Source of the DNA: Boletus sp. NGJ
Lineage: Eukaryota; Basidiomycota; Agaricomycetes; Boletales; Boletaceae
Direction: 5' to 3'
Assembly (NCBI GenBank): GCA_019096195.1
Contig: JAGTXK010000117.1
Span: 43,597-107,596, forward strand
DNA: 64,000 nucleotides
Position numbers and translations under genes: made by a program
Shown here: in pieces, positions 1 to 18,672 of the stretch
How the letters are laid out: each line of letters opens with the position of its first letter
Numbering within the stretch: position 1 is the first letter of the stretch
The notes under the pieces: model-generated
The model's database searches: none
Told to the model about the DNA's origin: nothing
Seen by the model: only the letters and a program-made list of their open reading frames with translations

Positions 1-352
1 ACCTACGAAATACCGACCACTGCGTGGCGTTCGACGTTCCCCCGCAATACCTGTCAACGGCGCATCATCTCGTCGAAACATCAGGATCGACGTACCTGCT
101 CCACGAGCGCTTTTGGAGCATCACGTTCGCAGGTGTCACCTTCCCATCGAAGCGAAACACCGTCTCTTGCATGCGATGCCACTCAATGACACCCATCGTC
201 TCAGGGACACCACTCGAACCGTTCCAGTTATACTTGGTGATGGTAGTCACTTTATTGAACGCGGTCGGTGTGGAGATGGTGTACTGAAGGTACCCTCGCT
301 CGTCAGAGATATCCGTGTTCATGTAGTTGGTGGTGCTGAATGTGAGGCGCAT
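1..352 (-). CDS. DUF6593 family protein, copy A (3' part off the window)
   Basis: The minus-strand reading frame starts at 352 with MRLTFSTTNYMNTDISDERG and continues through the YTIST, TTITKYNW, MGVIEWH and FRFDGKV blocks. This order is typical of DUF6593, a beta-rich domain of unknown function that is expanded in agaricomycetes. A donor GTACGTCG lies just after the RSWSR residues and an acceptor GACAG near position 50. The next exon reads RYCGGTSN and runs off the left edge, so the C-terminal half is missing from the window. No signal peptide is visible. Copy B at 1297-1987 is a diverged paralogue in the same orientation. The family assignment is recognition from motif order; the function is unknown. 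Confidence 0.7.
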
Positions 353-1296
353 GTCAGCGATTGAGAGTGAGAGGGGGGAAGGGGAAGTAAGACGTCCTCT
401 AGCCTTTTCGGCCGGTGAGTCTTATACAGCAGACTCCTCAAGACTTCATGTGTATGGATTTGGTCTGAGCTTGATCAAAGGCGATACGCGGCAGTGCATC
501 AATAATTAATGAATGGCGCAGCAAGCTTAGCCTCCCAAATGCGATTTGAGGGTGCCTACAGAATTCCTGGCCTGAAGTTACCCGGACCAACTTCGGCAAA
601 CGAGTAGCTGTCTTCTACTGTTCTTTGGTGATTTCATGTTGACCGGCGCAGCGCATGTACAGGCTGTGACTCGCAGCCCATCAGGAAATTCACTTTACTG
701 AGACGCACTCATACGTACTCGGCGGTTTTTGTTCCCGTCTACTAGTAAATGATAGTTAGTGTAGTGTAAGTACAGTACAAGACAAAAAGCAGCACTTGAA
801 GAAATCATCTACATACTATACTCTCGCCAAGTATACAAGTTTGCACAGGCATCTCAAGCCCGCTACGGTATCCTCGATCCATCCAAAGCTGATCGTGATG
901 CTAAGCACAAAGTCGAGCACTAATAGCAAGTACATTGGGTAAATACGTCTCCATCCAAAAAGAAAGAAAAATAGAGCACAGAGTGAGTAGAGACAGTCCG
1001 AATCGTGGAAACGGCTGTGTGGTAAACGGGGAGAGCGGTGTGGGGCAAGTGACCAACCACTGGCAATCACATCAAGTTATGTTACGCACGTATGCATCCG
1101 CGGTTGAGAGAGCGATTTATGCAGATGTGACCATCTTCTCCCGGTGAAGATAGGATGCATGGTCAGGACAGTAAGGGGATCGCATGGGTATAAGTGTCTA
1201 CGCTGGACTGCTTCTGGTTCGTGATTACGACGATGTTCGTCTCAACAAGCAGGACTTAGTTGAAAAGCCCCCTGCTATCACTCCAAAACCGTGGCA
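353..1296. other. gene-poor interval
   Basis: No convincing gene. A minus-strand frame at 816-1070 encodes a hydrophobic stretch (ALFFFLFGWRRIYPMYLLLV) that could be a membrane segment of a lost or spliced gene. It has no recognisable domain or clear start. The rest is AT-rich intergenic sequence. Confidence 0.4.
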
Positions 1297-1987
1297 TCAT
1301 TTTCGAAAGCCACAAACGCGTCGAAAATGGAAAACAAATGTGAGGATGATGTGATACAATAATCGAACCACCTCAGTACTAGAGACCTCAAGGTATGCCG
1401 GATGAAACGGTTTTATTATCCCGAGATTTTTCTTGTAGAACCGCACGAGCTGGACGTTTGACTCGTCACGCTTCATCTGCTCATAAGACACGTCCAAACC
1501 CATCATTCGTCATCTTATTCGACACCGCAGAAAACCAGAACAGAACATACCCAATAGCACGGCCCGTATGGCTGAAGCTTCCACTTGTAAGTGTGCTGAT
1601 CAGGACCTACGAAATATCGACCTAGCAGCGTTCAACGTTTCCCCAATCCACGATTCGAGTCGCCAATATCAGTCAATGTCGCGTCATCTCGTCGAAACAT
1701 CAGGAATCCACGTACGTGCTCCAAGTGCGCGTTGAGAACATCACGCTCGCAGGTGTCACCTTCCCATTGAAGCGAAACATCGTCTCTTCCATGCAATGCC
1801 ACTCAATGACACCCATTGTCTCAGGGATGCCACTCGATCCGCTCCAGTTGTACTTGGTGATGGTCGTCACCAGTTTGTTGAACGGGGAGGGTGTGGAGAT
1901 GGTATAATAAATGTACCCTCGCTCGTCAGAGATATCGATATCTGTGGTCCAGTGGCTGGCGGCACTGAATACGAGTACGAGATGCAT
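1297..1987 (-). CDS. DUF6593 family protein, copy B (possibly decaying)
   Basis: The frame from 1987 carries the same block order as copy A: DISDERGYIYYTIST, TTITKYNW, MGVIEWH, FRFNGKV. It is followed by a GTACGTGG donor near 1734. Downstream pieces continue the domain: GPDQHTYKWKLQ near 1590-1560, then a terminal exon with MKRDESNVQLVRFYKK and HPAYLEV ending at 1297. Charged VRF and PPYLEV-like ends are usual for DUF6593. Compared with copy A, the acceptor GACAG is changed to GACTG and extra bases are present. A different acceptor (GCTGCTAG near 1620) must therefore be used, or splicing is impaired. The internal exon borders are uncertain. Confidence 0.6.
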
Positions 1988-2565
1988 GTCAACGATCCGG
2001 AGTGAGAGTGAGAGTTAGAATGAGCCTGAGGGGTGGTAAGGCGTCGTTCAAATTTATCGGTCGTGTCCTATGACTTGAATGATCTAGAATGAGTGGTGCG
2101 GTGGATGGGGCGGGAATATTTATTGGCTGGATTCGTTTCTAGTGTAGCAATTTAAGGATACCTGAAGCTTGAAGTATTGCTAGCGTGAAGTCATACAGCC
2201 CATCATCATGATCGGCAAGCTGCTATATTGTTCTGTGGTGGGGCTGACTCTCGCACATAAAGGGCGAGGACATGGTCAATTGAATTCCTTTGGGCTTACT
2301 TTTGATGTATTATCAGTGTTCAGGTTGCCAGGGAGATTCACGGGGAAACCGAAAGCGTAGAGGTGGCGAATGGGCCCGGGGAAGCCGTAATGATACTTAC
2401 ATAATAAAGTAGGCTATTATTTACAGCGAAGTTGGCAACTCGTGACGTGTATAGAAGATGGTCAACTTCAGTTTTGTTCATATGGTACTTAGGGATCTGG
2501 TGCATGTTGTCTAGCGCTGGCGAAGGCAGTATGACTCAGTCTGACTCCGTCGATTCGCGCCATGC
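1988..2565. other. intergenic, divergent promoters
   Basis: No gene seen. The interval separates the start of DUF6593 copy B (minus) from the plus-strand PPOX-fold gene and so holds both promoters. Confidence 0.5.
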
Positions 2566-2574
2566 TATATAAAG
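2566..2574 (+). promoter_or_regulatory. TATA box of the PPOX-fold gene
   Basis: TATATAAAG lies about 50 bp upstream of the ATG at 2624, the only strong TATA match in this intergenic region. Confidence 0.6.
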
Positions 2575-2623
2575 TCCTCAGGCGCTTCAATATTGGACCT
2601 CAACCACCTTTCGACGTTCAATC

Positions 2624-3647
2624 ATGAATAGCTATCCAAAGGAACGGAGGAACACCGTGAACAGGTTGAACAAACGAGGTGAGATTTTCGGACCTGCTCG
2701 AAATGCGGCAGTGTAGCCAACCAATGCCAACTAAATAAACTCTTTGATGACAGCGGCATACGACTACGAAACCGTCCATGGCATCGTCAATGCTGCATCC
2801 GTCGTGCATGTCTCCTTTCTTCCACCTTCACCCTCTGGTAGCTATGACGATCCCGGCGAGCGTATGCCAATCATATTACCTATGATTGGCAAGATGGGTG
2901 TCTATCCCGAAGGTGGCGATGATGCGCCTGCATGTTATCTGCACGGTGGGAGTGCCACGCATATCTCTCCATGTTGAAAAATCCACAAGTGTTGATCGCC
3001 TCGAACATTCTCTAGGTTACGTATCCAGCCGGCTCATGAAGATCTCGTCCACCGTCTCCGCCTCGGACGCAGGCGAATCGGATGGACTACCCGTGTGCAT
3101 CGCAGCGACCCATGTCGATGGCCTTGTGCTCTCCCTAAGCCCCTTCTCACACAGCTACAACTATCGCTCGGCCGTCCTTCAAGGCACTGCTACCGTGGTC
3201 CTGGACGTCGACGAGAAGCTCTGGGCGATGACCCTCATTACCAACGGCGTCTTACCCAAACGGTGGGAAACCTCCCGGACCCCGCCCACAAGTGCAGAGT
3301 TGCAGAGCACGCGAATCCTCAAAGTGCGCATAGTGAGTGCAAGCGCCAAGGTAAGAGCAGACGGACCGCATGATGAGCGGTTGGATGTAGAAGACGGAGA
3401 ACTCGTTAAGAGAGTGTGGACAGGCGTAGTGCCGGTATGTCCCCCTGATATGAAGATTTACTTTAGCGGTCCAACGTGCGCCGTTTTTCAGGTCTTTGAG
3501 GGGTTCGGAGAGCCTGTGCCAAGCACGTACAATGGTGTACCGACCATACCGCAGGACATTCGGGAGTATCTGAGGCGAGAAAATGTGAAGAGAAAGAACG
3601 ATGCTATCCGTGTTGCAACGGGTGGAGATCAAAGTGTCGCAGAATAA
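2624..3647 (+). CDS. Flavin-nucleotide-binding PPOX-fold protein (Pyridox_ox_2 type)
   Basis: Four exons (2624-2678, 2754-2945, 3016-3434, 3492-3647) join in frame to 273 codons plus stop. The protein begins MNSYPKERRNTVNRLNKR and continues with YDYETVHGIVN, VVHVSFLPPSP and ILPMIGKMG. Then come CIAATHVDGLVLSLSPF, HSYNYRSAV and EKLWAMTLITN, and later RILKVRIVSASAKVR and RVWTGVVPV. This order matches fungal pyridoxamine-5'-phosphate-oxidase-like FMN-binding proteins of the Pyridox_ox_2 group. Members are split-barrel proteins, usually dimeric and cytosolic, and their physiological substrate is generally unknown. The start is supported by the TATA box about 50 bp upstream and by the conserved YPK..RNTV opening. 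All introns are GT-AG and 56-75 bp. No lesion was seen. Confidence 0.85.
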
Positions 3648-4044
3648 GCATTTGTTGTGTCCTTGCGAAAACCACTTCCCATTGGCTTACTCCTCCCTGA
3701 ACGGACCAAAGGGTCAATGCAAGAGGGTCGTCTGTTCTTCCACACAATAATAACACCGTATTTCTCTGATTGCCATCTTGGTGCACCCCCTACTAATGCC
3801 CTAGTTCGCCGTCTCAGTATTTCCCTTTGTCAGCATGGTATGGGAGTTATGAATTTATGGAAGACATGCTTTGCCTACGCTTACGCCATGGTGAGTACGT
3901 CGCTCTGCTGCTAGATATGCTAATCGCAAGGTTTGAAACCCAAATTAACGCAACCAATAGCATGTAGCGATGGCAAGTATACAGCCTTCAGGCCTTCAGG
4001 TCCCTTCCGAGTCGCAGTACAGGAATACCTTCAGAGGTTCGTGT
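3648..4044. other. intergenic
   Basis: Only short unrelated open frames; no gene seen. Confidence 0.4.
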
Positions 4045-4320
4045 GGATTGCCGGTGGCGACCGCCGACTCTCCTCCATCTCCTCCATGGCTGACCCGACG
4101 GTTTGGGAGACATATAAAGAGAGGACAGTAAGTGTGCCCAGGGCAGCATCGATACGTCTCAGCGTCCACACCATCGCCTTGTCAATACCGATGGCCGCAT
4201 TTCCGAACTAGACCTTGAAAAGCTAGGCGAGCGAGAATTGACCGCGCTTTCACATGGATTTTGATACACCCACCTCGAGGGTTTACAGCCCGTAAGGGAG
4301 CTCGAGGTGAACCACGCGAC
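4045..4320. repeat. Dispersed repeat R, copy 1
   Basis: Contains the core CTGACCCGACGGTTTGGGAG, then GCGTCCACACCATC and GGCGAGCGAGAATTGACC, ending in CTCGAGGGTTTACAG. The same order of blocks recurs near 5815-6110, 8050-8335 and 9765-10120, always next to a copy of the small paralogous gene. It does not itself encode a recognisable protein. It marks the outer part of the segmental duplication unit. Confidence 0.7.
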
Positions 4321-4456
4321 TTAGAGACTTTCTGTACATTTGTTTGCCGCCAACGTGCTACTTACTAATCCTACAAAGCGCTTCACGTCACGGCACTCCC
4401 GAAACATCCTGCGACAACTGACGTGTATTCATACAAATCTTTTCCACCACAAAAGC

Positions 4457-4889
4457 TTAGAATTTGACATCCCAGGAGCCACTGAGCCCCTTCTGCAAAC
4501 CGGTCCCAGACCAGGTCAGGTTACTTCCCTGGTACAACTTGACCGTAAGACGTGCGACTACGAGCTTATAGTTGCCGGTGAGACCGGAAGGCGACTTGGA
4601 GCCTACGAATGCACCAGTTCCTTTCTTGTTGCATGGACCGCTACCGGAAGGACCTGGAGAGAATTTGGCGTAGATAGTGCCACCAGCACCCACGAGCGCG
4701 AGCTTCGAACCAGAAGCAGGTGCATCCTCCAACGCTTGGATTTCATCGGCAGCAGCAATCTGGTCGTCGAGCTCGACAACAAGGTCGGCATCAACCTCGA
4801 TGCTGAGTGAGTCGATGACTGAGTCATGTGTCAGGAATGAATTGCGTGGGCACAGCGACAGAAACGTGCATACTTTCAACGGCGGACAT
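4457..4889 (-). CDS. Small protein of unknown family, paralogue 1 of 4
   Basis: Exon 1 is only 16 bp (4874-4889, MSAVE), then a 55-bp GTATGC-CAG intron, then exon 2 (4457-4818). The joined frame gives 125 residues. An acidic N-terminal part (VVELDDQIAAADEIQALE) precedes a probable all-beta domain with TIYAKFSPGPSGSGPC, NKKGTGAF, LTGNYKLVVARLTVKLYQGS and SGTGLQKGLSGSW. There is one cysteine, no signal peptide and no membrane segment, so a soluble intracellular protein is likely. I do not recognise the family. The start is chosen because the 16-bp first exon and its donor are conserved in all four copies. The gene lies head-to-head with paralogue 2 across the inverted repeat. Confidence 0.75.
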
Positions 4890-5055
4890 GATCACAGAGG
4901 ACAAAGGTTTTGAATAACGAATTCGTCAAAGAGCTTGAGCTGGACAAACACGATTCAGTGGACTGAGAGTAGGTGTGGACGGATGATGTACTCAGTTGTG
5001 CAGTTGCTTGCAACAGACTGGAGAACTGGGGAACAGAATTGATTGCTCAGACTGG

Positions 5056-5063
5056 CTTTTATG
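5056..5063 (-). promoter_or_regulatory. TATA-like element of paralogue 1
   Basis: On the minus strand the sequence reads CATAAAAG about 170 bp upstream of the ATG at 4889. The element is at the same place in paralogues 2 (7033-7040) and 3 (about 8973-8980). It appears as a full TATAAAAG in paralogue 4 (11509-11516). Confidence 0.45.
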
Positions 5064-5623
5064 GGCCATTCCCCCTTCCACTGACGTCTTATCTCCGCCG
5101 GGTAGGAAAGCGAGCTGGGGGCGAGTGAAAGGCGATCGATGCATATGCGCTGGAAAGCTGACGTTTGAACGGCATGATAAGAAAATCAGCCTGCCTTTTA
5201 GAGATTTTATATTGGGAGCAAACTCTGTCGCGAGATACTTGGGGTCCGGAAGTGGCGTTTGGGAATGGGCAGAGTGTTGCAGGCGTAAAGTTCGATTGAA
5301 GAGCCTGTACGATTGTACGATGTCGCTGGGGGAGGGGACAAAACATGGCTGTGGAGGGACAAAATTCTTTCCTGCGCAAGTGTTGATCATATCCCGCCTG
5401 GGGATGGCAAGGAGAGGAATCCTCGCTGGCTACTTCCAGTACTTGCAGTATTGCATGGGAACGAGAAAATCCCTGGTGCCCGTCAGGGTCCAGCTGGTAG
5501 TTACGGCTAGCTAATCGTTGATAATCCTATAAACTGTTAATATCCGCGCCAGTGACGAAGAAATGATACGTCATATCACAGCAGACAATTCAGTTGTCGT
5601 TATGATGAACCGAGTCAATTGAA

Positions 5624-6459
5624 TCTGCTGGAAAGTCGTGAGGAGCTCTGAGAGAGCTGATAATCTGTGGCGATGCCACTAAGCATTGCCCGTTTTGTGC
5701 GTTCAGGCACAGACTAACTGACTTAGTACAGGCGCACCATTCCGAAGTCGAAGGACTCGCTTACAGTAAGCTGCTGATGGGCCTCTTTCTCCCCAGAGAG
5801 TTCCCACTCGCCTCAGAGGCTCGTGTCGATCGCGAGTGGCCACGCATGACTCTCCTTTACGGCCGACCCGACAATTTGAGAGACGTAGATGAGGTGGACG
5901 GGTAGCGTGCCCGGGGCAGCGCCAATACATCTCAGCGTCCAAACTATCCCTGGCATTTCTGCTTTAGACCTTGACAAACTAGGGAAGCGAGAATGACCGC
6001 GCTATTACCTGGATTTTGATAGGCCCGTCTCGAAGGTTTACAGGACCGTAATGCCTGCATGTCGATATCCAAAGCGATTGTACGTAGGGCTTATCGCTGA
6101 AAAAGGGGCGAGTAGCCGAATTCAACCTCCTCACCCGCAAATCCTTTTTTCACAGTTGACCGACTCGTCCTCTGCGTGCGTCCAAAGGGGGGTTTATAGA
6201 TAGTCATGTATACAATTGGTCATCTCCGTGGTAACTACAGGCTCTGGATATCGTTCAATAGGTCGTCGGTCGGCCGACTATGGCGCTGACTACCCAGCCC
6301 ACCTCATTGCGTATGCTTGACCATCAACTTGAACGATGATAGCTCCAATTGACGATTCGAACTCATATAGGCGGGAGGAAACCGCATCGTGAGCAACCAT
6401 GACAAATGTATTCATGGAAAGTTCCGTTCGGCGATGCTCTCAGCATCTGACTCCACGAT
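5624..6459. repeat. Spacer between inverted-repeat arms, containing repeat R copy 2 (about 5700-6110)
   Basis: The spacer carries the R blocks GCCTCAGAGGCTCGTGTCGA, CCGACCCGACAATTTGAGAG and GGTTTACAGGACCGTAATGC. These are followed by GCTGAAAAAGGGGCGAG, which also occurs at copies 3 and 4. No protein-coding gene was found in it. Confidence 0.6.
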
Positions 6460-7765
6460 ATTCAATTGACTCGGATGATCATAACGACGATTGAATTGTC
6501 TGCTGTGATATGACGTACCATTTCTTCGTCACTGGCACGGATATTGATATCAACAGTTAATAGGATGGCATCAGCGATAAGCCAGCAGAAAAGGTGCGCC
6601 CCACAGGCTAGCCGAGCTTCTACCAGGACCCCTGACGGGTACCCACCAGCAATTTTCTCGTTTCCGTGCAGTACTGCACTGGAAGTAGCCACGAGGATTC
6701 TCTCCTCTTGGGATATGATTAAAACTTGCACAGGGTAAATTTTCGTTGCTTCACAACCATAATCTATCCCCTCCCCCAGCGACTCGGACTTTGTACTACA
6801 AGCTCGTCAAGTCTGTAACCCTCTGCCCGTTTCCAGACGCCACTTCTGGACCCCAAGCATCTCGCGACAGAGTTTGCTCCCGATGTGAAACCTCTGAAAG
6901 GCAGGGAGATTTTCTTATCATGCCGTTCAAACGTCAGCTTTCCAGCGCATATGCACCGATCGCCGTTCACTCGCCCCCAGCTCGCTTTTCCTACCCGGCG
7001 GAGATAAGACGTCAGTGGAAGGGGGAATGGCCCATAAAAGCCAGCCTGAGCAATCAATTCTGTTCCCCAGTTCTCCAGTCTGTTGCAAGCAACTGCACAA
7101 CTGAGTACATCATCCGTCCACACCTACTCTCAGTCCACTGAATCGTGTTTGTCCAGCTCAAGCTCTTTGACGAATTCGTTATTCAAAACCTTTGTCCTCT
7201 GTGATCATGTCCGCCGTTGAAAGTATGCATGTCTCTGTCGTTGTGCCCACGCAATTCATTCCTGACACATGACTCAGTCATCGACTCACTCAGCATCGAG
7301 CTTGATGCCGACCTTGTTGTCGAGTTCGACGACCAGATTGCTGCTGCCGATGAAATCCAAGCATTGGAGTATCCAGGTGCTGCTTATTCGAAGCTCGCGC
7401 TCGTGAGCGTTGGTGGCACTATCTACGCCAAATTCTCTCCGGGTCCTTCTGGTAGCGGTCCATGCAACAAGAAAGGAACTGGTGCATTCGCAGGCTCCAA
7501 GTCGCCTTCCGGTTTCACCGGAAACTATAAGCTCGTAGTCGCACGTCTTACGGTCAAGTTGTACCAGGGAGATAACCTGGTCTGGTCTGGGACCGGTTTG
7601 CAGAAGGGGCTCAGTGGCTCCTGGGATGTCAAATTATAAGCTTTTGTGGTGGAGTATGAATACATGTCAGTTGTCGTAGGATGAAAGTGCCCTGACGTGT
7701 AGTGCTTTGTAGTATTAGTAAGTAGCTGTAGCAGCACGTTGGCGGCAAACAAACTTACAGAATGA
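6460..7765. repeat. Right arm of the large inverted repeat
   Basis: Reverse-complement partner of 4325-5623. It carries paralogue 2 on the plus strand with its promoter region. The arms differ by scattered substitutions and small indels, so the duplication is recent but not immediate. Confidence 0.85.
7207..7639 (+). CDS. Small protein of unknown family, paralogue 2 of 4
   Basis: Exons 7207-7222 and 7278-7639 give 125 residues, beginning MSAVEIIDSLSIELDADLVV. Compared with paralogue 1 it has VEFDDQ for VELDDQ, EYPGAAYSK for the EDAPASGSK segment, and a YQGDNLVW turn; the remainder is nearly identical. The beta-domain signatures GTIYAKFSPGPSG, KKGTGAF and SGTGLQKGLSGSWDVKL are intact. It is the only copy on the plus strand because it lies in the inverted arm. 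The reading frame is intact and the promoter and splice sites match those of copy 1, so it is probably expressed. The function is unknown. Confidence 0.75.
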
Positions 7766-7864
7766 AAGAGGCTCCAAGTCACGTCGTTCACCTCCCTTAC
7801 AAGTTTTTTGCCAGTCGTTGACTCCTCCAAAGTGGGTTCCATATATATTTCTTGCGGTCAGCTC

Positions 7865-8335
7865 TAAGAGAGATAATCGATAATCAATAATCTGTGGCGA
7901 TGAGTCACTAGTATTGCCCGTTTTGTGCGCTCAGGTAAGTTCCTGCGGCACAGACTAACTGACTTAGTACAGGCACACCATTCTGAAGTCCGAGAAGGAC
8001 TCAGGCTCGCTTAAGCCGATGCCTCCTAGATTTCCCCACCCGCCTCAGAGGCTCGTGTTGATCGTGGGCGGCCACGCTCGACTCTCCCCCATCTTTACGG
8101 CTGACCCGACAATTTGGGAGGCGTAGAAAGAGTGGACGGTTGGTGTACTATCCCCTTGTCAACATTGATGGCCGCACTTCTGCTTTAAACCTTGACATGC
8201 CAGGCAAGCGAGAATGACTATCACCTGGATTTTGATAGGCCCGCCTCGAGGGTTTACAGGACCGTAATGCCTGTTGATATCCAAAGCGATCGTACGTAGG
8301 ACTTATCGCTGAAAAAGGGGCGAGCAGCCGAATCA
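7865..8335. repeat. Dispersed repeat R, copy 3
   Basis: Contains GCCTCAGAGGCTCGTGTTGA, GCTGACCCGACAATTTGGGA, GGGTTTACAGGACCGTAATG and GCTGAAAAAGGGGCGAGCAG in the same order as copy 2. It ends directly at the 3' side of paralogue 3. Confidence 0.7.
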
Positions 8336-8375
8336 TCCTACGACAATTGACATGTATTCATACAGATCTGTTCCA

Positions 8376-8811
8376 TCACAAAAGCTTAGAACTTGGCGTC
8401 CCAGGTGCCAGTAAGCCCCTTCTGCAAACCGCTCGGGCCCAGATCACCTTCTTTTCATGGTTCAACTTGACCGTGAGGCATCCGACTTCGAGCCTATGGT
8501 TACCGGTGAGATCGGCAGGTGGTTTAAGGCCTGTGAATGCACCAGTCCCATTCTTGTCGCATGGACCGCTACCAGAAGGACCTGGAGAGAATTTGGCGTA
8601 GATGGTGCCACCAGCACCCACAAGCGTGAGCTTTGCAGAAGGCCGTGGTTTCAAGGAGCTGATTTCGTCGGCAGCATTCAAGTGGTCGTTGAGCTCGACA
8701 ACAAGGTCGGGGTCAACCTCGATACCGAGTGAGTTGCAGACTGAGTCATATGTCAGGAATGAATTGCGCGGGCACGACAGCGGGGACGTGCATACTTTCA
8801 TCGGCAGACAT
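8376..8811 (-). pseudogene. Small protein of unknown family, paralogue 3 of 4, C-terminal frameshift
   Basis: Exon 1 is 8796-8811 (MSADE) and exon 2 starts at 8740. The frame follows the family (VDPDLVVELNDHLNAADEIS, TIYAKFSPGPSGSGPC, KNGTGAF, LTGNHRLEV) as far as KKVIW near 8440. There one base is missing relative to the other copies. The conserved SGTGLQKGL ending is replaced by ARAVCRRGLL and the frame closes at 8376. The family-type ending can still be read in the neighbouring frame, with a stop at 8386-8388. It is therefore either a recent pseudogene or a variant with an altered last 20 or so residues. A single-base assembly error cannot be excluded. Confidence 0.65.
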
Positions 8812-9639
8812 GATCGTAAAGTACAAAGGTTTTGAATAACGAATTCGTCAAGGAGCATGTGTCGAACAAACGCGATTCAACGAACTGAGAATAGGCGCGA
8901 ACGGATGATGTACTTGCCTACTACTATGCAGTTGCTTGCGATAGTGGGGCACAGAAAGGATTTCTCGGGCTGGCTTTTATGGGCCTATCCCCCCTCCACT
9001 GACGGAATGATATCTCATCTCCGCCAGGTAGGAAAGTAAACTGGATACGGGCGAACGTTTGAACGGCGAACGATACAGATGTATTGGAAAGCTGATCTTT
9101 GAATGGCATGACTAGAAATCTGTCTGCCTTTTAGAGGCGGTGGGCAGTGTTTATGTGGGAGTAAAACGTAGTGGAAAATCCACCGCCTTGTGTCAGTGTC
9201 TTCCGGAGAAGTGGCCTTGAAACTTGAAGAGCCCGTACAAGGTCCGAACTCAGAGGAAGAATTGTGGCTCTAGACTCTGGAGGGGACAAAATTCTTACCC
9301 CATGCAAGTTTTGATCACATCCTGCCTGGGGATGGAATCCGCGCTGGCTAGTTCCAGCGGTACTGCACGCGAACGATGAAATTGCTGGTGGGTACCCGAA
9401 AGGGTCCTGGAGTCCTGGAGTCCTGGTACTAGTAGTTCAGCTCGCCTATGGCAGTGGGATCCAGCACCTCCTCTGCTGGCGCCTGGCTTATTGCCAATAA
9501 TCCTGATATCCGCACCAGTGACGAAGCAATGATGTCACACGTAGTAGACAATTCGATCGTTGTTATTATTGTCGACTGGATCTCCAATCTTGCTCAGATA
9601 CTGAGGCCTTGAGATCTAAGAAAGTTGATAATCTGTGGC

Positions 9640-10120
9640 ACTACTATATTGCCCAGTTTGTGCGGTCAGTGGGAAGCACAGACTGACTATTAGACCTACC
9701 ATTCTGAAGTCAAATGACTCGATTATCTGCTGATGCCCATACTCCCACCCGCCTCAGAGGCTCGTGTCAATTGCAGGTGGCAACGCTCGACTCTCCTCCA
9801 TCCTGACGGCTGACCCGACAATTTGGGAGACGTACTAGAAAGGGTGGACGCCGGTTAGTGTGCCCGGGGCAGCGCCCATGTGACATCTCAGCGTCCACAC
9901 CATCCCCTTGTCAACACTGATGGCCGATTTTCGAACTAGACCTAGGCGAACGAGAGTTGACTGCGCTATCACCTGGATTTTGATAAACCGGCCTCGAGGG
10001 TTTACGGGACCGCAGTGCCTGTTAACATCCAAAGCGACTGTACGTATCAGTAGGGCCCAGCACTGAAAAGGGGGACGAGCGTAGGAGGCGAATGCGATCA
10101 TTCTCGCCGACCCTGCGAAT
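9640..10120. repeat. Dispersed repeat R, copy 4
   Basis: Contains CCGCCTCAGAGGCTCGTGTC, GCTGACCCGACAATTTGGGA, GGTTTACGGGACCGCAGTGC and a GACGAGCG end. The order is as in copies 2 and 3, but divergence is higher. Confidence 0.65.
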
Positions 10121-10780
10121 CCTTTTTCCGTACTAATCGTCTCGTCCTCCACGCACGTGCCATGGGGATTTTGTAGATAGTAATGACTATCAGCGGCCAA
10201 CTTTGCGATGAGCAGAGCCTCTGTCCGTGCCGGACATCGTTTGATAGGTCGTCGGTCGACTGGGTCACTGACTATCCTGCCCACCCCACCTTTCGTTTTT
10301 TTTTACCGTCAACGATGTCAACTCCAGTTGACATTTGGTAAACAGTGCAGGAAGCGCACTGCGGGTAGAAACAGCACTGTGAGAAAGTTGTACGTGTGTA
10401 CGAGTTGCGACGCTAAAACGCTTGAGAACGAGTCGTAGTGAGTAACTTAAGCAACCAAGACAAATAGTACGATGTTCATGGTGCACGTAACTCGGTTTTG
10501 TGCTCACCTTTGTCAAAATATACGGCGAAGCAACTTCAAGTTGATTGTCAGGTTTTCGGCCACGCTCACGTATCGTTACCGGAGAGCAAGAAATACTAGA
10601 AGGCGATCGGAATGGAGCAACTTGAAGTCCGCGTTCTGCACGGGAAAACGACACCGCAGCAGTGTACAAGATCAAGAACAAACATAGTATGGAATCCATC
10701 GTAACTCCTCCAGCTTGAAGGAGTCAATGTAATTAGGGTGAACCGCATGATCAGACTTGGTGCCAGTGCCTTTCTTTACA
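10121..10780. other. intergenic
   Basis: A minus-strand open frame at 10265-10699 starts with a hydrophobic stretch (MDSILCLFLILYTAAVSF). It has no recognisable continuation, splice support or family, so I do not call a gene. Confidence 0.35.
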
Positions 10781-10913
10781 TATGTTTGTTTCCCGCCAAC
10801 TTGCCGCTACAGCTACTCCTCAATTCAATTGGACCCGTCCCCGCTCACGTCACTCTCGAATTCTCCTACGACAACTGACATGTATTTATACAGATCTCTT
10901 CCACCACAAATGC

Positions 10914-11352
10914 TTAGAGCTTGATGTTCCACGTCCCGCTGAGCCCCTTCTGCAAACCGGTTCCAGACCAGATTACCTTACTTCCCTGCTGCAACTTGAC
11001 CGTGACACGGCCGACCTCGAGCTGATAGTTACCGGAGAGACCGGAAACTGGCTTGGAGCTTGCGAATGCACCAGTCCCTTTCTTGGCGCATGGGCCGGTA
11101 CCAGCAGGACCCGGAGAGAACTTGGCGTAGATAGTGCTACCACTGCCCACAAGCGCGAGCTTCGTAGTAGCCGTAGCAGTCGCATGCTGCTCCAAGGAGT
11201 GGACTTCGTCGGCAGCAGCCAAATGCTCGTCGAGCTCGACAACAAGGTTGGGGTCACCCTGGATACCGAGTGAGTTGATGACTGGGTCACATGTCAGGAA
11301 TGCATCGCGCGGGCACGACAGCAAAGACGTGCATACTTTCAGTTGCGGACAT
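10914..11352 (-). CDS. Small protein of unknown family, paralogue 4 of 4
   Basis: Exon 1 (11337-11352, MSATE) and exon 2 (10914-11281) join to 127 residues. The N-terminal helix-like part (LVVELDEHLAAADEVHSLEQ) is followed by an HATATATTK insertion. Then comes the beta domain: STIYAKFSPGPAGTGPC, KKGTGAF, LSGNYQLEVGRVTVKLQQ and SGTGLQKGLSGTWNIKL. It is the most diverged of the four but keeps the 16-bp first exon and a full TATAAAAG at 11509-11516 on the minus strand. No lesion was seen, so it is probably a functional member. The biochemical role is unknown. Confidence 0.75.
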
Positions 11353-13126
11353 GATCACGAAAGTACAAAGGTTTGGGTAACGAATTCGTCAAAGGGCCTG
11401 AGTGGAACAAATGCGATTCAGCGGACTGGGAGTAGGCGCGGAGGGACTGTACTTGCCTATGCAGTTGCTTGTGATAGACTGGGGAACAGCATCAATCACT
11501 CGGGCTGGCTTTTATAGACCTTCCCCCCCTCCGCTGACGAAACGATTTTTTATCTCCGCGGGGTAGGAAGGCGAGCTGAAGGTGGGTCATGTACGGTGAT
11601 CGATGCACATGCGCTGGAAAGCTGACATCTCGCACTTCGAATTGCGCCGTGCGCCAGTGTATGGCATGGCAGGAAGACCTGTCTCCCTTTGAGAGGTTTT
11701 GTTGGGAAGAAACTCTGCTCGGAAGCTTGGGATACGTATAGTCCGTCAGCGTCCCCCGCGGAAGTGACCTCGGGAAATGGACAGAGGGGAAATCCGATTT
11801 TCTTGCCACGGAAGTGGCGCTGGGGAGCGTCACGGTGAACCTGAAGCGCACCTCATAAAGTGGTCAAAGTGCCCACCTCATATGAACTGGGATCGCATCG
11901 GTCAAAGAATAGGTTGATGTCGACCCGCCACAGAACGAGTGGCAGCACCGTTCCTCAACTAGCGGCGGTGGCGTCAGGTATTTTCACGAGCTCCAATCGA
12001 GTGGCACAATGTAGCTCGAAGGGACCATAAAATATCACGTCTCGCGATGAGCATCGGCACGTTTGGAAACTCGCCTTGTATTTGGATCACGGCCATGGCT
12101 ATGATGTGGCACGCCTATTACGCTGCTAGAGAGCATACGGATTCGAAAGAACTTCAAGTTGCCAATATAAATGAGAACTCGGAATTACCTTGCTTGATTA
12201 TTCAACCCCTGAGCAACAGTGACAACATCACCAAATTGCGCCACGCTCAACCAAAATAATTTGTTTCTTCCGTCTTCTCCTCGTGTTACTAAGCTAGGAA
12301 GTGTTAACATCAATCACACGTTTTACTGTCTGTTTCACTTGCTTCTACCATCTCGTTGTCTTATTCACGTACCTACATCATATATACATTCTCGCTGGCA
12401 AGGAAGGTTGGCGCCGACGCTCAGTCTACTTCCCAAATTCAATATTTTTCCACGATTCATTTCGTGGCGGGTTTGCTTCGCGGTATACATGCAGTAATGT
12501 ACTACAGCCTGGGGGTGGCGGCAAACGATTCATCTAGACAAATATTGACCTGCCAGTGCAACTGCGAACAGGTTCGAGCAACGTCACGGTATGTATGATA
12601 CAATTTGAACCCGCAGGACGAGATTGTCGTGGTTTATACGATCAACAATGGAACAGCCTCACTGGCATGCTGTCAGGACCAAAAGGCTCTGCAGCATGGG
12701 ATGGAACCCGCCCGATGTTGTGCGCAGGATCCGCAGTTCAGTTCCAGTCGCAAGACTCGCAACCCAAGAAGATCTCTCTGGTGCATTACTGAAAACTCAA
12801 ACTCGCCACCTGCCCCGTGGTCACACTCGTGGTAGAGAAACGTTCGTTGACAAAAGTTATTCGTCACACAAGCAAAAGTGGAAACCCTGCTTTTCATAAG
12901 TTTAGGAAAAGAACCTATCTACCTACTACAAGCATGCAAGTACTCAGTACTATATGTGATATGTGCGCACGCCCAACGACGACGACGGCAAGCAATGAGA
13001 AGAAGAAAGAGAATGTAAAAAAAGGATAGTATCAATGCCAGTCATGAACAGTCGGATGTGATGAGAGTAGATTACATGCACAAGAAAAAAAAAAAGGGAA
13101 AGTCGTCTACGAACAACCGCCATACT
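11353..13126. other. upstream region of paralogue 4 and gene-poor interval
   Basis: The first 500 bp resemble the promoter segments of the other paralogues. Beyond about 11.9 kb no gene is clear. A plus-strand frame at 12556-12792 (…NSLTGMLSGPKGSAAWDGTR…SQPKKISLVHY) ends cleanly and looks weakly protein-like, but it has no recognisable family or reliable start. Confidence 0.35.
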
Positions 13127-14897
13127 TCAGGGAAGCAAGCGGGACTTCTCGTTGACGAAAAAGTCTTGGGCCTGGAAAAGGTCGTGTGAGCGTCCTGGAT
13201 TGATCGTTGAACGCATGGACACTCGAACCTCGTCTTCCCTCATAACTTCATACCGCTTCGTGCGCTTCGTCTGTGTGTACTTTCGGTATACCGCAAACGC
13301 AAACGCACCGAAGGCGAGCATAGAAACGAGCGCGAGCCAGAATGGCGTAAAGGCACCCTCGTTAGCGATCGCAGCATACCCGAATGGGAACCAGCTTGTC
13401 GAGCATGTGGAAGCCCACTTGTCCTGCGGAACCACATGGTGCTGTGTGAGTGTGAGCGTGAGTAAAACATCGTCTACGAGCCTGTACGGCCTGACGAACC
13501 TCCAATCGGTAGATAAACTCGGTCACTGGGACTTTTTGTTCTGGGTGCCCAAAGATGTGCAGAGTTTGGAACTCGTCATCGTCAGTACCGTTCTTGAATT
13601 TGAGACGAACAAAATCTCGGAACTCGGGAGCGGGACCACGGAGAACCTCAAACGCCAAAGCAGAAGCATAGTTGGCTGTAAGTTACGTCAATAAGCACAT
13701 GGTAAGACCCCTGAGAGGAGCATACGCACGAAGTCCAAAGAGTTGCCCGTTGTCGCCATGTGCGTTCAACATGGAAAAGAGAGAGATGAAAGGTTGGTAA
13801 CTGGTCTCGATGAGCAAGACTCGGAGCGGGTCGTCGTCGAAAGCAATTCGTTCAAGGGACTTGGTAATTGGGGAAAGGATGGCTCTTCCGGCGACTGAAA
13901 AGTGTGTCACGTGTTCTGACGACTTGGGAAACTACAATGTGACTCACGGTTTCCAATGCCTCCAAGATCTTTGTCGGAAAAGACCGCAGTTTCCTTGTAG
14001 TTTACCCAACCACGTGCTTGCTCGATCAATGTTGGTGGAAGTCGGAATGCAAAAGTCTGGTTGTGGATAAGTTGCGTGTTGAGGTAATCATACACCTGTG
14101 CCACACGCAATCAGAAATGAAAGAATGGAATGAAAACGTCTACGAACATTCCACTACAATGAGAGGAGGGAGTCAGAAGCTGACACAAGCTAAGGCCACT
14201 CGGAAGCGTACCATATCAACAAGCGACGTAGGTCTACCAAACATGTAGTCATGGACCGATTCGAAGAAGTGCTCTGCGTCCTTGGCAGCTTGCATGAACT
14301 CCTCCGAAGCGTAAACCTCGGAAACGTGTTTTTTGAAAGCCTGGACACGCGTTTAATATGACGGCCACGCGAAATGGTGAGCGACACGCGGACCTTGCAG
14401 TCGGTCCAGGGCTCGAGCACACGATCGTCTCCTACTGTGGCCATCTCGACGGGGACATATTGATAGCCTCCGAGCGGGGATATAACGGCAGATCCGTTGG
14501 CGAGTTCAATTTTGTTATGCAGAGTCGGTGGGAACATCCCCTGCAACATTGCGATACCGGAGTCAAAGATCGCGGCACTCTCGCCACCTGACTTTGCGTG
14601 GACGTTGACTTTATTGGGCGGGATGGGGTGGGTCGGGTCCAGAGGCATGTCACGGATGTGGAGAGGCGAAGACGAGTCTAGGTAAATAGACTTGAGGTAA
14701 GAGCCGAGCTGGAACGACTCGGCCTATCATAGTGACATATCAGCATGCTTCGTCAAGGAAGAGTGAATGGTCACACGCACGGCACCGAGGGGAGTGGACT
14801 CGGTGAATGACGGTGCATAGCTGTAGGGGTCTTGGGAGAACTCTGAACGATCCCCATTACTTGCGAGGATGAGCACACCGAGAACTTTGGGTACCAT
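13127..14897 (-). CDS. Histidine-phosphatase (clade 2 acid phosphatase-like) fold protein, catalytic motifs missing
   Basis: Seven exons (14781-14897, 14394-14723, 14212-14340, 13948-14095, 13730-13894, 13500-13675, 13127-13423) join in frame to about 453 residues. Family landmarks are VLGVLILASNGDRSEF, STPLGAAESFQLGSYLKSIY, SGGESAAIFDSGIAMLQG and PLGGYQYVPVE. Further on are VYDYLNTQLIHN, SYQPFISLF and GLPNYASALAFEV. Residues near the end (FTPFWLALVSMLAFGAFAFAVYR) form one C-terminal membrane helix with a basic cytosolic tail. In active members the first motif is RHGxRxP; here it reads SNGDRSE. No HD/HAE dyad is visible at the second site (IETSYQP). It is therefore probably a membrane-anchored pseudophosphatase. 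No signal peptide exon was found, so the true start may lie upstream. Confidence 0.75.
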
Positions 14898-15860
14898 TTG
14901 TCGAATCGTCAAATGTCAGCGAAATATGACAGTGAGTATTGCCGGAGAGTATTGTCCAAAGACTGACACGAGCACCAAGGGAGAGAGTGGGTTGGAAAAG
15001 TCGGTATCATTCGAGGGTTTTGATATCTCCCGCCATGAGGCGGGCATCGCCAAGCTACTTAGCGAAGCGACCAAGGGCGATGACGGGTCGCATGGCAAAC
15101 GGCATGGTCCATTCCCTGCCACGCTTCGAGGGTGTGTGGGCCCTGTGGGGATCATGAGATGCCAGTTCGTGCAACCTCCCCGCTGCCACTTGTACGTGGT
15201 TTCCGGGCACCGGAAGCTTGAAACCGCCTGAAGATCACGTCAGCTAGGAGCATGCCATGTGATATTAAGGGAAAGAACAGACTTGATTGCAATAATACGG
15301 ACTGGATGCGGTCCAGCTTGCGCGGACATGCGCAAGAAGCATGGCGGCCTATCCGAAATAGTGGCGAGCAAGTGGGTGCACGTGCCGGACCGCGAACTGG
15401 ATGTATCGTCCTCAGTTCGGTTGAAAACAAGCACTGAGTGACATGGCAAGGCTCACTGTGGAATGCAACGTAGGTCATCGAGCTGGCGCTAGAAAGCAAC
15501 AGGCGCTTCAGGGTGGCGCCCATGGTGGACACACCGAGTCAGACACGTGCTTGGGGGCAGGAAAAAGACGTCCGTAATGAAAGTCGCGCTTCCCACCCGC
15601 GGAAACAAACATAATCAAAAGCAACACGATGATGTTACGCAGCAGCCAATGCCCTGCCTCGGCGGCAAACACAATGAATTTTCCAAGGCGTATGCTCTCC
15701 TATCTGCCGGCCCACAATGGAGCACGTAATGATGGATGATCGCAAGAAGGGGGGATAGCCTAACCGTGGCTTTGCAGTGCATCATTGAAGTTCTGTGGTG
15801 CCACCAACGTGCTCGGACCTCACAGATCATGGAGTGAATCTCATGGGGAAAAAACAAGTG
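14898..15860. other. upstream region
   Basis: No clear gene. A missing N-terminal exon of the phosphatase-like gene could lie here; a minus-strand ATG at 15523 (MGATLKRLLLSSASS) is the only weak candidate. Confidence 0.3.
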
Positions 15861-16290
15861 GCGATGGCCAATCCACATTATTCTGCAGACTGCGATGATA
15901 GAATTGGCAGTGCTTGCCAGTGAAGAAGAAGATGCGAACCCGACACTGGCCACAGCGCCAGCCCGAGATAAGCGCAGCCACGACCGGTGCCGCTTCTTTT
16001 CTCGATCCAATGTCAGCGATGCAGCGTGCAAGCAACATTTTCACGCTTCCTGGTGATAAATGATATCAAGACATAGCAACTTGCACCGTTGACCAATGCA
16101 GGTTTGAGCTGGATGTCCCAGTGTCACCTCGTACGACTTGGATGACATTCACCGGTCTACTCTGACTTCTTCATAGAACATCACAGCATCATTCGTCGCA
16201 TGTCATTCATACCACCTGAAGCGCTGATCTCGACACTGGTATCGGGTTTCATAGAAATCCCGCTGCCCAGGGCACCGGCACTTCGAACTC
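15861..16290. repeat. Direct repeat DR, copy 1
   Basis: Matches 18267-18672 in the same orientation. Shared tracts include GCGCAGCCACGACCGGTGCC, GCAACATTTTCACGC, AAGACATAGCAACTTGCACC and GACATTCACCGGTCTACTCT. Copies differ by small indels and substitutions. Confidence 0.85.
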
Positions 16291-16716
16291 GGGTGTCCAA
16301 AAGGTACGCGAGGCCCTTGTCTGCTATTGTCCCATTGCTTCGTATCATTGGGACGAATTCCTGAATTCCTGATCCATTGCCGTTGTAGCAATGCGGGAAT
16401 TTGTGCTGCTACGAGAGGAGAGGAAGCGGTTGGCAGGGCAGCTCCGACCACACTTCAAATGTGTTCCCGAAAACCGTGCATGGCGTGAACAACCAATATT
16501 TCCCTCTCTACGCCAGAGCGGGGTGTTGGTAGTTGGTAGAGTCTTTCGAGCAGCCATCGGGCACACAGGACTGAGGACAGACCTGAAAGCCTCTCATTCC
16601 CTTAGGATCGGCATAATGTTCCCGTTTGTACTTTCCTACGATCATATCGCACAGTTGTAGAGGTATTTGTGTGCAGTGAAATATTCAGAGCTCAGCACGG
16701 GAGATCGAGTACAAAA

Positions 16717-17710
16717 TCAGATGGGCCTATTCCTCTTCTCTTTTACATCCATAGCGCTACCCTCATCTTCTTCTTTTACATGCAAATCGCCATCCTCGTC
16801 TTCCTCTTTTACATCCGAATCGCAATCAGGGAGATCAGCAAGGACATCTTTTGGAAGGTATTAGGTTACATAGAAGGGCTATAGAATGACGCTGTACTTA
16901 CCCCCGGCATAGATACGCTCTGGCTCGTCGTCGTCGGGGCCTTGCTCGAGTTGTGCATACGGATGTTCGAACCACTCCCGGAAGATATTTATTCCATCTT
17001 GTATGAGCTTGGTGGTCGATGCAGTCCTGATATTCCATTGTGCTGCTTTCCCGTCCCAGTCCTGTCCAAAGTGTACCTTTGCGTATTCCCAATCTATTTT
17101 ATTATTCCTGGAAATGAGCGGCAGCCGTCACATGAAGGAAAAAGAGGAAAGTCTCACTCACCAAGCGTGAAGACATCTGTTGTGCGCAGATTCATTTCTG
17201 GATGATCCCGTTGCCACAATATCACCGCACTGGGATCGTGCCTCCCAACAAAACATTCTTCTACCATGTAGATATCAAAAAAACGGATCGCGACATCCTC
17301 GTTCGTCGCTGCTGCCTCCCTGAATGCTGGCCGACAGAAGTCCAGGACGTTAAAGAAATAAACGAGGTTCGACTTCATAGCCTCCCTCATCTCCCACGTG
17401 ATCAATGAGTCTTCACTCTGTTGACAGAACAGCAATGCCGCCAGGACATCCCCACGCCATAGGAATCGGCAGACCAGACGCTCATAACGAGCCGGAATCG
17501 GTGTGAGAATTCCTTGACGAGTATTATCCGTACTGTCTTGCCATTCGATATTCACCTTGGACCCCGATGTAACTACACGATATGTCGTCCCAGCTCGGGT
17601 TTCGATATCATCATCCTCTGGGACCTCGAGTGGGAACAAGGAGCCACTGGGTAGTTTTCTGTACCTTGGAACTACCTCGTTGGATATGTTTGGAAGTTGG
17701 CTGTAATCCT
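16717..17710 (-). CDS. Uncharacterised protein with acidic VKEE-repeat C-terminus (5' end unclear)
   Basis: Coding pieces on the minus strand, in order: YSQLPNISNEVVPRYRK with FPLEVPEDDDIETRAG and onward to DVFTLG (17710-17154). Next comes an exon with DWEYAKVHFGQDWDGKAAQW and FREWFEHPYAQLEQGPDDDE (about 17110-16910). The last exon has DVLADLPDCDSDVKEEDEDG, HVKEEDEG and MDVKEK, with a stop at 16717. The final intron (GTAAGT to AAAAG) is in phase; the junction near 17150-17110 is not and may use another site or carry a lesion. Upstream, KTYSTACKAVIDTSTWSPLP (17840-17760) is probably an earlier exon. No family is recognised. The gene sits between the two copies of direct repeat DR. Confidence 0.55.
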
Positions 17711-18266
17711 AGCAGTGATCAGAAATCAATACAAGGAGGGGGGAAGCATACGGGTACCTTTGGGGGGGAGTGGCGACCAAGTCGAAGTATCGATAACCGC
17801 CTTACATGCTGTGCTGTAAGTCTTGTAGGTAAGGGCCACTCTCAGAGGGGTTCCCCGCGAGGAATGCCGGGGTCTCCCTCGGCTACATGGTTGCCAAGCT
17901 CGCTCACGACACGCTCGCGCCCGACGCTCGGCGACGACGCTGGTTCTCGACGAGCGCGAGCCTCCACCATTGGCAGCACTTTGATGAGGCACCTACGGTC
18001 TCTTAGACCTATTCCTGCCTACATCCAATATATATATCTGAGACCCTACCTCGAGCACACTACCCAGTTCCCAATGTGAAGTCGAGCAGCTCCGTGATGT
18101 CCCAGCGAGGTCACGACGTGGCTCGGTGTGCTAAACAGGATTTCCCATGTGCTACCCGTGGACCTTATTTGGAGCGTCTGCATCAGTACTTGGTGAGTGC
18201 TTGAGTTCTTTGTTAGTTGAATGTCAGTGCATGAGCAATGAGCATTATTCCGACTTTGACGGACCA
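17711..18266. other. 5' region of the VKEE-repeat gene
   Basis: Holds at least one probable upstream exon (about 17840-17760), but I could not settle a start codon. The rest looks non-coding. Confidence 0.3.
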
Positions 18267-18672
18267 GCGATGGCTAATCCACATCGTTCTGCAGAATTGG
18301 CAGTGATTGAAAGAGAAGGTACGAACCCGACACGGGCACAGCGCCAGTCTGAGATAAAGCGCAGCCACGACCGGTGCCGCTTCTTTTCTCAATCTAATAT
18401 CAGCGATGCAGCGTGCGAGCAACATTTTCACGCCTGTTGGTGATAACTGATAGGATCAAGACATAGCAACTTGCACCGCTAACCAATCCAAGTTCGAGCT
18501 GAATGTGTCGACTCGTACGACTGGGTGGACATTCACCGGTCTACTCTGACTTCTCCATAGAACACCACAGCATCATTCGTCGCATGTCTTCCATACTACC
18601 TGAAGCGCTGATCTCGACACTGGTATCAGATTTCATAGAGATCCCGCCCCCAGGGCACCGGCACTTCGACTC
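18267..18672. repeat. Direct repeat DR, copy 2
   Basis: Partner of 15861-16290. It shares the tracts CATTCGTCGCATGTC, CTGAAGCGCTGATCTCGACA and CAGGGCACCGGCACTTCGA. The two copies lie about 2.4 kb apart and bracket the VKEE-repeat gene. Confidence 0.85.

Follow-up and report, generated by a model that had tools for sequence, protein, structure and literature searches.

A 64,000-nucleotide stretch of a contig from Boletus sp. NGJ (JAGTXK010000117.1, positions 43,597 to 107,596; hereafter the window) contains an array of four related copies of a small gene, designated A to D. Two further full copies, E on contig C59 and F on contig C40, lie elsewhere in the genome; DNA and protein searches agree on this set of six. 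The genome searched is the window's own (32.8 Mb in 141 contigs), and copy counts are lower bounds.

Gene copies and the repeated unit

Copy A occupies 4457-4889 of the minus strand, with exon 1 at 4874-4889, an intron at 4819-4873, and exon 2 at 4457-4818. Copy B (7207-7639, plus strand; exon 1 7207-7222, intron 7223-7277, exon 2 7278-7639) is inverted relative to the other members of the array. Copy D, on the minus strand at 10914-11352 (exon 1 11337-11352, intron 11282-11336, exon 2 10914-11281), has E and F as its nearest relatives. The frames of A, B, and D are intact and, after splicing, run open to a stop, giving proteins of 125, 125, and 127 residues. Copy C (8376-8811, minus strand) follows the same exon-intron plan and is degenerate; it is frameshifted, runs out of frame near its end, and has lost the last part of its coding frame. 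In all four copies, a first exon of 16 bp is followed by a 55-bp GT...AG intron at an identical position, an intron kept in all six genomic copies. The coordinates and strands of the four paralogues, their shared first exon, and their common intron position all agree with an original prediction made from the window's letters. That prediction also ascribed the signatures KKGTGAF and SGTGLQKGLSG to every copy, which is correct for A, B, and D; C reads KNGTGAF and lacks the second signature. Long antisense frames lie over A (4340-4810, plus strand) and over D (10782-11273, plus strand) and are probably a by-product of codon use.

A TATA-like box, [CT]A[TC]AAAAG, had been placed about 160 bp upstream of the genes, and such a box is indeed found 164 to 174 bp from the gene in all six copies. 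It reads CATAAAAG in A (5056-5063, minus strand; -174), B (7033-7040, plus strand; -174), and C (8974-8981, minus strand; -170), and TATAAAAG in D (11509-11516, minus strand; -164), and stands at -164 in E and -165 in F. The upstream stretch that contains the box can be aligned across all six copies, and the genes would be transcribed from this conserved TATA promoter.

Comparison of the region with itself and with C40 and C59 by BLAST reveals that each gene of the array is accompanied by a repeated segment, R. The order is R and A; R and an inverted A segment carrying B; R and C; and R and D. The R segments lie at 4031-4295 (unit A), 5813-6051 (the second unit, ahead of the inverted block with B), 8045-8267 (unit C), and 9754-10005 (unit D), and are 67-78% identical in the pairs listed. 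Of the six matching pieces of R found, the array contains four; the other two are in a single stretch of C40 beside F, where left spacer, R, and gene follow one another as in the array. R thus accompanies five of the six copies, all but E, and none was found by BLAST next to E in the 9.9 kb compared. The earlier claim that R stands beside each copy is borne out for all four window units, and the wider claim that gene, promoter, and R together form the duplicated unit holds for these four and for F, but fails for E. The arrangement is thus a head-to-tail repeat of a roughly 2-kb unit made up of left spacer, R, gene, and promoter; one segment (B, matching A) lies inverted, and a D-type gene block is also present at two other sites, those of E and F.

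The inverted segment, 6452-7794, is a minus-strand copy of 4304-5632 with an overall identity of 85%. Within it, 6987-7653 matches 4443-5109 at 96%, forming an inverted pair of 667 nt; this similarity is far above chance, as are the BLAST matches between units, whose E values go down to 0. The block carrying D is shared with C40 over 10555-12174 (90.5% over 1.65 kb) and with C59 over 10673-12174 (95.5% over 1.5 kb).

Selection and probable homogenisation

Ratios of non-synonymous to synonymous change (dN/dS) were obtained from Nei-Gojobori counts in two runs with slightly different alignments. Within the D/E/F lineage, the ratios are 0.08 (D/E), 0.19 (D/F), and 0.14 (E/F), and each pair has an excess of synonymous change over the neutral expectation (P 0.0008-0.015). 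When changes are assigned to branches, 9 of 15 are synonymous (P 0.0036 against neutrality), with one non-polarisable site entered as non-synonymous. Of the 23 changes that separate A and B, 18 are non-synonymous and 5 synonymous; the resulting dN/dS, 1.17, is not above neutral (P 0.50), and the pair's share of synonymous changes (5 of 23) differs from that of D/E/F (P 0.037). Comparisons of A, B, or C with the remaining copies yield ratios of 0.55-0.82 across both runs, with a synonymous excess at P < 0.05 in only 2 of 11 pairs. Purifying selection on D/E/F is therefore supported by the coding sequences; there is no such support for A and B. The suggestion that three intact frames reflect selection stands for D, as a member of the conserved lineage, and lacks support for A and B. 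The original prediction had itself named a dN/dS near 1 as a result that would speak against it, and the A/B pair shows such a value, as under neutrality.

The differences between A and B are unevenly spread: 1 of 220 positions upstream, 0 of 16 in exon 1, 3 of 55 in the intron, and 23 of 362 in exon 2. In the matching upstream stretch, D and F differ at 13 of 215 positions, E and F at 14 of 215, and D and E at 7 of 218, whereas their second exons differ less (12, 12, and 5 of 368, respectively). The near-identity of the A and B upstream regions departs both from the 5 changes at about 91 synonymous sites of the same pair (P 0.009) and from the D/F upstream count (P 0.0007). Because the promoters are nearly identical while the coding exon has diverged, the pattern most simply suggests a recent gene conversion tract over the 5' part of the genes, passing between the inverted arms.

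A bolder version of this picture is that the genes encode a new domain family restricted to a narrow set of fungi. The inverted pair would then share its promoter by conversion while positive selection diversifies the coding exon. If true, the pair would act as a small natural generator of diversity whose expression stays constant as its product varies, beside a D/E/F lineage locked by selection. We consider this unlikely.

Block ends and a contig without E

The matches of D to E, to F, and to contig C127 all stop at window position 12174. A 12-nt motif, AACTTCAAGTTG, occurs on the plus strand close to both ends of the D block, at 10532-10543 on the left and at 12150-12161 on the right. At up to one mismatch, the window has six matches to it (0.39 expected), four of which are at D-block ends. 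The motif also brackets F on C40 in a form one base longer, the near-palindrome CAACTTCAAGTTG (C40:342164 and C40:343812); this 13-nt form has 16 exact sites in the genome, compared with 0 for a reversed control. In addition, a perfect inverted pair of 12 nt (10617-10628 and 12151-12162) encloses D, and a different 13-nt pair, at 92%, surrounds F. No inverted pair of this kind was found around E, which has the right-end motif only. The near-palindrome could represent element ends or a binding site. A stretch just past the breakpoint, 12283-12436, has two matches on C101 at 87-88% and is perhaps a small dispersed repeat.

These features raise the possibility that the D/E/F gene block is itself a non-autonomous mobile element, or is carried by one, whose movement dispersed the gene, the array being a by-product. 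The joint end at 12174, the bracketing motifs, and the inverted pair enclosing D all fit, as does part of the left spacer, 77 nt long (window 9334-9410), that recurs at 75-85% identity on C71, on C137, and elsewhere on C40 (C40:36033). However, the six pieces of R all fall within the array or next to F, the similarity of D and F extends beyond the bracketed block to R and the left spacer, and E lacks the full set of end features. Furthermore, E and F share 27 bases past the common end, so that 12174 may instead mark a window-side breakpoint, and no target-site duplication was established when the flanks were read by eye. Mobility of the block is improbable as the main explanation.

Copy E is present on one of two nearly identical contigs. 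C127 corresponds to the C59 locus minus about 1.1 kb internal to the shared block, a segment that includes gene E. Over 3.2 kb of flanking sequence the two contigs are 99.6-100% identical, and over two further stretches 99.9-100%, 19.8 kb in all; near the start of C127, positions 180-9000 match C59:582631-591426 at 99%. Since the C127 allele retains both block ends, it represents an internal deletion rather than an empty site. C127 is likely a second nuclear haplotype, a reading based on the report of two nuclear haplotypes in Rhizoctonia solani AG-8 (PMC12774589). The possibility that D and F are themselves alleles is unlikely, as they are further apart than C59 and C127, which are 99.9-100% identical where compared, and a search with window positions 12730-18500 found no counterpart on C40. 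The contig-end repeats at C127:1-1640 are common to many contigs and are perhaps subtelomeric.

The missing E, the broken C, and the neutral A/B pair also speak for the copies being relics, that is, duplicated DNA whose frames are open by chance or youth and encode no functional protein. Against this stand the synonymous excess within D/E/F, the retention of both intron and TATA-like box in six of six copies, and the in-frame amounts by which the subfamilies differ in length. Together, these make it unlikely that the family consists of debris.

The predicted protein and the evolution of the family

The five intact proteins have masses of 12.7-13.1 kDa, one Cys each, and, by hydropathy, no strongly hydrophobic stretch. 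AlphaFold2 models from inputs of 3 and 4 rows both place seven beta strands toward the C-terminus, with low confidence: the best pLDDT values are 51.1 and 64.7, the other four models of the first job score 30-32, and the N-terminal 38 residues of the first model fall below 50. The beta-rich domain proposed originally is consistent with these models. The predicted product of each intact gene is a soluble, roughly 13-kDa protein, not classically secreted, in which an acidic N-terminal part, its structure uncertain, precedes a beta domain at the C-terminus.

The original prediction did not recognise the family, and neither do the collections searched. Pfam and NCBIfam each return 0 families at the curated cut-off for the three proteins tried, and a single-sequence search of the PDB gives no convincing match. 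A profile search of the PDB picks up three chains of LpoB at E 0.038-0.23, which we ascribe to chance. In PHROGs, one of three members has a match at E 0.1, and nothing passes a usable threshold. Pattern scans give 66 and 23 matches in bacterial and archaeal species genomes and 98 in viral contigs, none of them confirmed. The best Foldseek hits (E 0.46 and 0.50 in the PDB, 0.20 among viral models) are taken as noise. Unrecognised here refers to these collections; fungal protein databases, the likeliest home of relatives, lie outside them. A comparison with VapA-type beta-barrel proteins (VapD, PMC4118825) is prompted by the small domain, the glycines, and the beta strands. Unlike these proteins, the family has no match in Pfam or among PDB sequences, and no VapA-like barrel is among the best 50 of 200 PDB Foldseek rows, obtained with weak models. 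Tentatively, the protein may serve in intracellular binding, of a ligand or carbohydrate, or in defence, a job that D/E/F would supply, with A and B as redundant or specialising extras.

A further alternative, which we regard as improbable, is that the family encodes fast-evolving effectors destined for secretion and that diversifying selection acts on A and B: the A/B ratio of 1.17, the polarised changes (9 non-synonymous and 0 synonymous on the B branch, 3 and 2 on the A branch, with 9 non-polarisable), the local amplification, and the presence/absence of E are in its favour, but there is no hydrophobic N-terminal signal (best 11-residue hydropathy 0.88-1.38 in the first 35 residues) and no signal peptide as judged by hydropathy only, each protein has a single Cys, the ratio does not exceed neutrality, and D/E/F are conserved. 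Small Cys-rich secreted fungal effectors such as RsSCR10 (PMC8421026) are likewise small, amplified, and unannotated; the array proteins differ in having a single Cys and no signal-like N-terminus.

Some neighbouring sequences are recognisable. A frame at 68-421 (minus strand) matches Pfam DUF6593 (E 1.6e-07), and one at 2886-3644 (plus strand), adjoining the array, matches Pyridox_ox_2 (E 2.2e-22). A stretch at 1334-2019 is 78% identical to C8:13700-14364. The single 5.8S rRNA match in the genome (C81:1729574-1729740) appears by eye to be C-to-T mutated relative to the usual 5.8S sequence. In R. solani AG8, hypermutation with a CpG bias has been reported (PMC4014442).

The preferred explanation, to which we assign a probability of roughly 0.68, is that the copies form a gene family, unrecognised in the libraries searched, that evolves by birth and death. 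Several paralogues at one locus occur together with dispersed copies, and degenerate or lost members are found beside constrained ones. Within such a family, purifying selection would maintain the D/E/F lineage, while the coding exon of A and B diverges free of detectable constraint and gene conversion homogenises their promoter and first exon; C is a degenerate member, and E one that is absent from a near-identical second contig. Several points weigh against this explanation. Each comparison used has few changes (5-23), the pairs are non-independent, and 9 of the 11 pairs of A, B, or C with the rest are indistinguishable from neutral. The identity of the A and B promoters could come from constraint instead of conversion, although D/E/F do not show promoter constraint of that kind. 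Instead of a second haplotype, C127 may reflect a recently duplicated segment or a fault in the assembly. The 12-13-nt near-palindrome that brackets the D and F blocks favours mobility of the block, and the proposed function is built on weak models.

Lineage-restricted (orphan) fungal gene families can evolve by birth and death, a process that combines tandem duplication with gene conversion and loss. The present family resembles them in its local array, its inverted pair with a homogenised part, its degenerate member, and its presence/absence variation, and differs in its protein, for which the families searched gave no match. R. solani AG1-IA has been reported to carry segmental duplications (PMC9890813); there too, duplicated segments carry altered paralogues, whereas here the unit is about 2 kb at a few loci. 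All of this is within the known modes of gene-family evolution, and the birth-and-death dynamics are ordinary. The family makes possible a compact comparison, inside one genome, between copies of an unannotated gene that are under constraint, drifting, broken, or missing, and the conserved D/E/F protein is a worthwhile target for structure determination.

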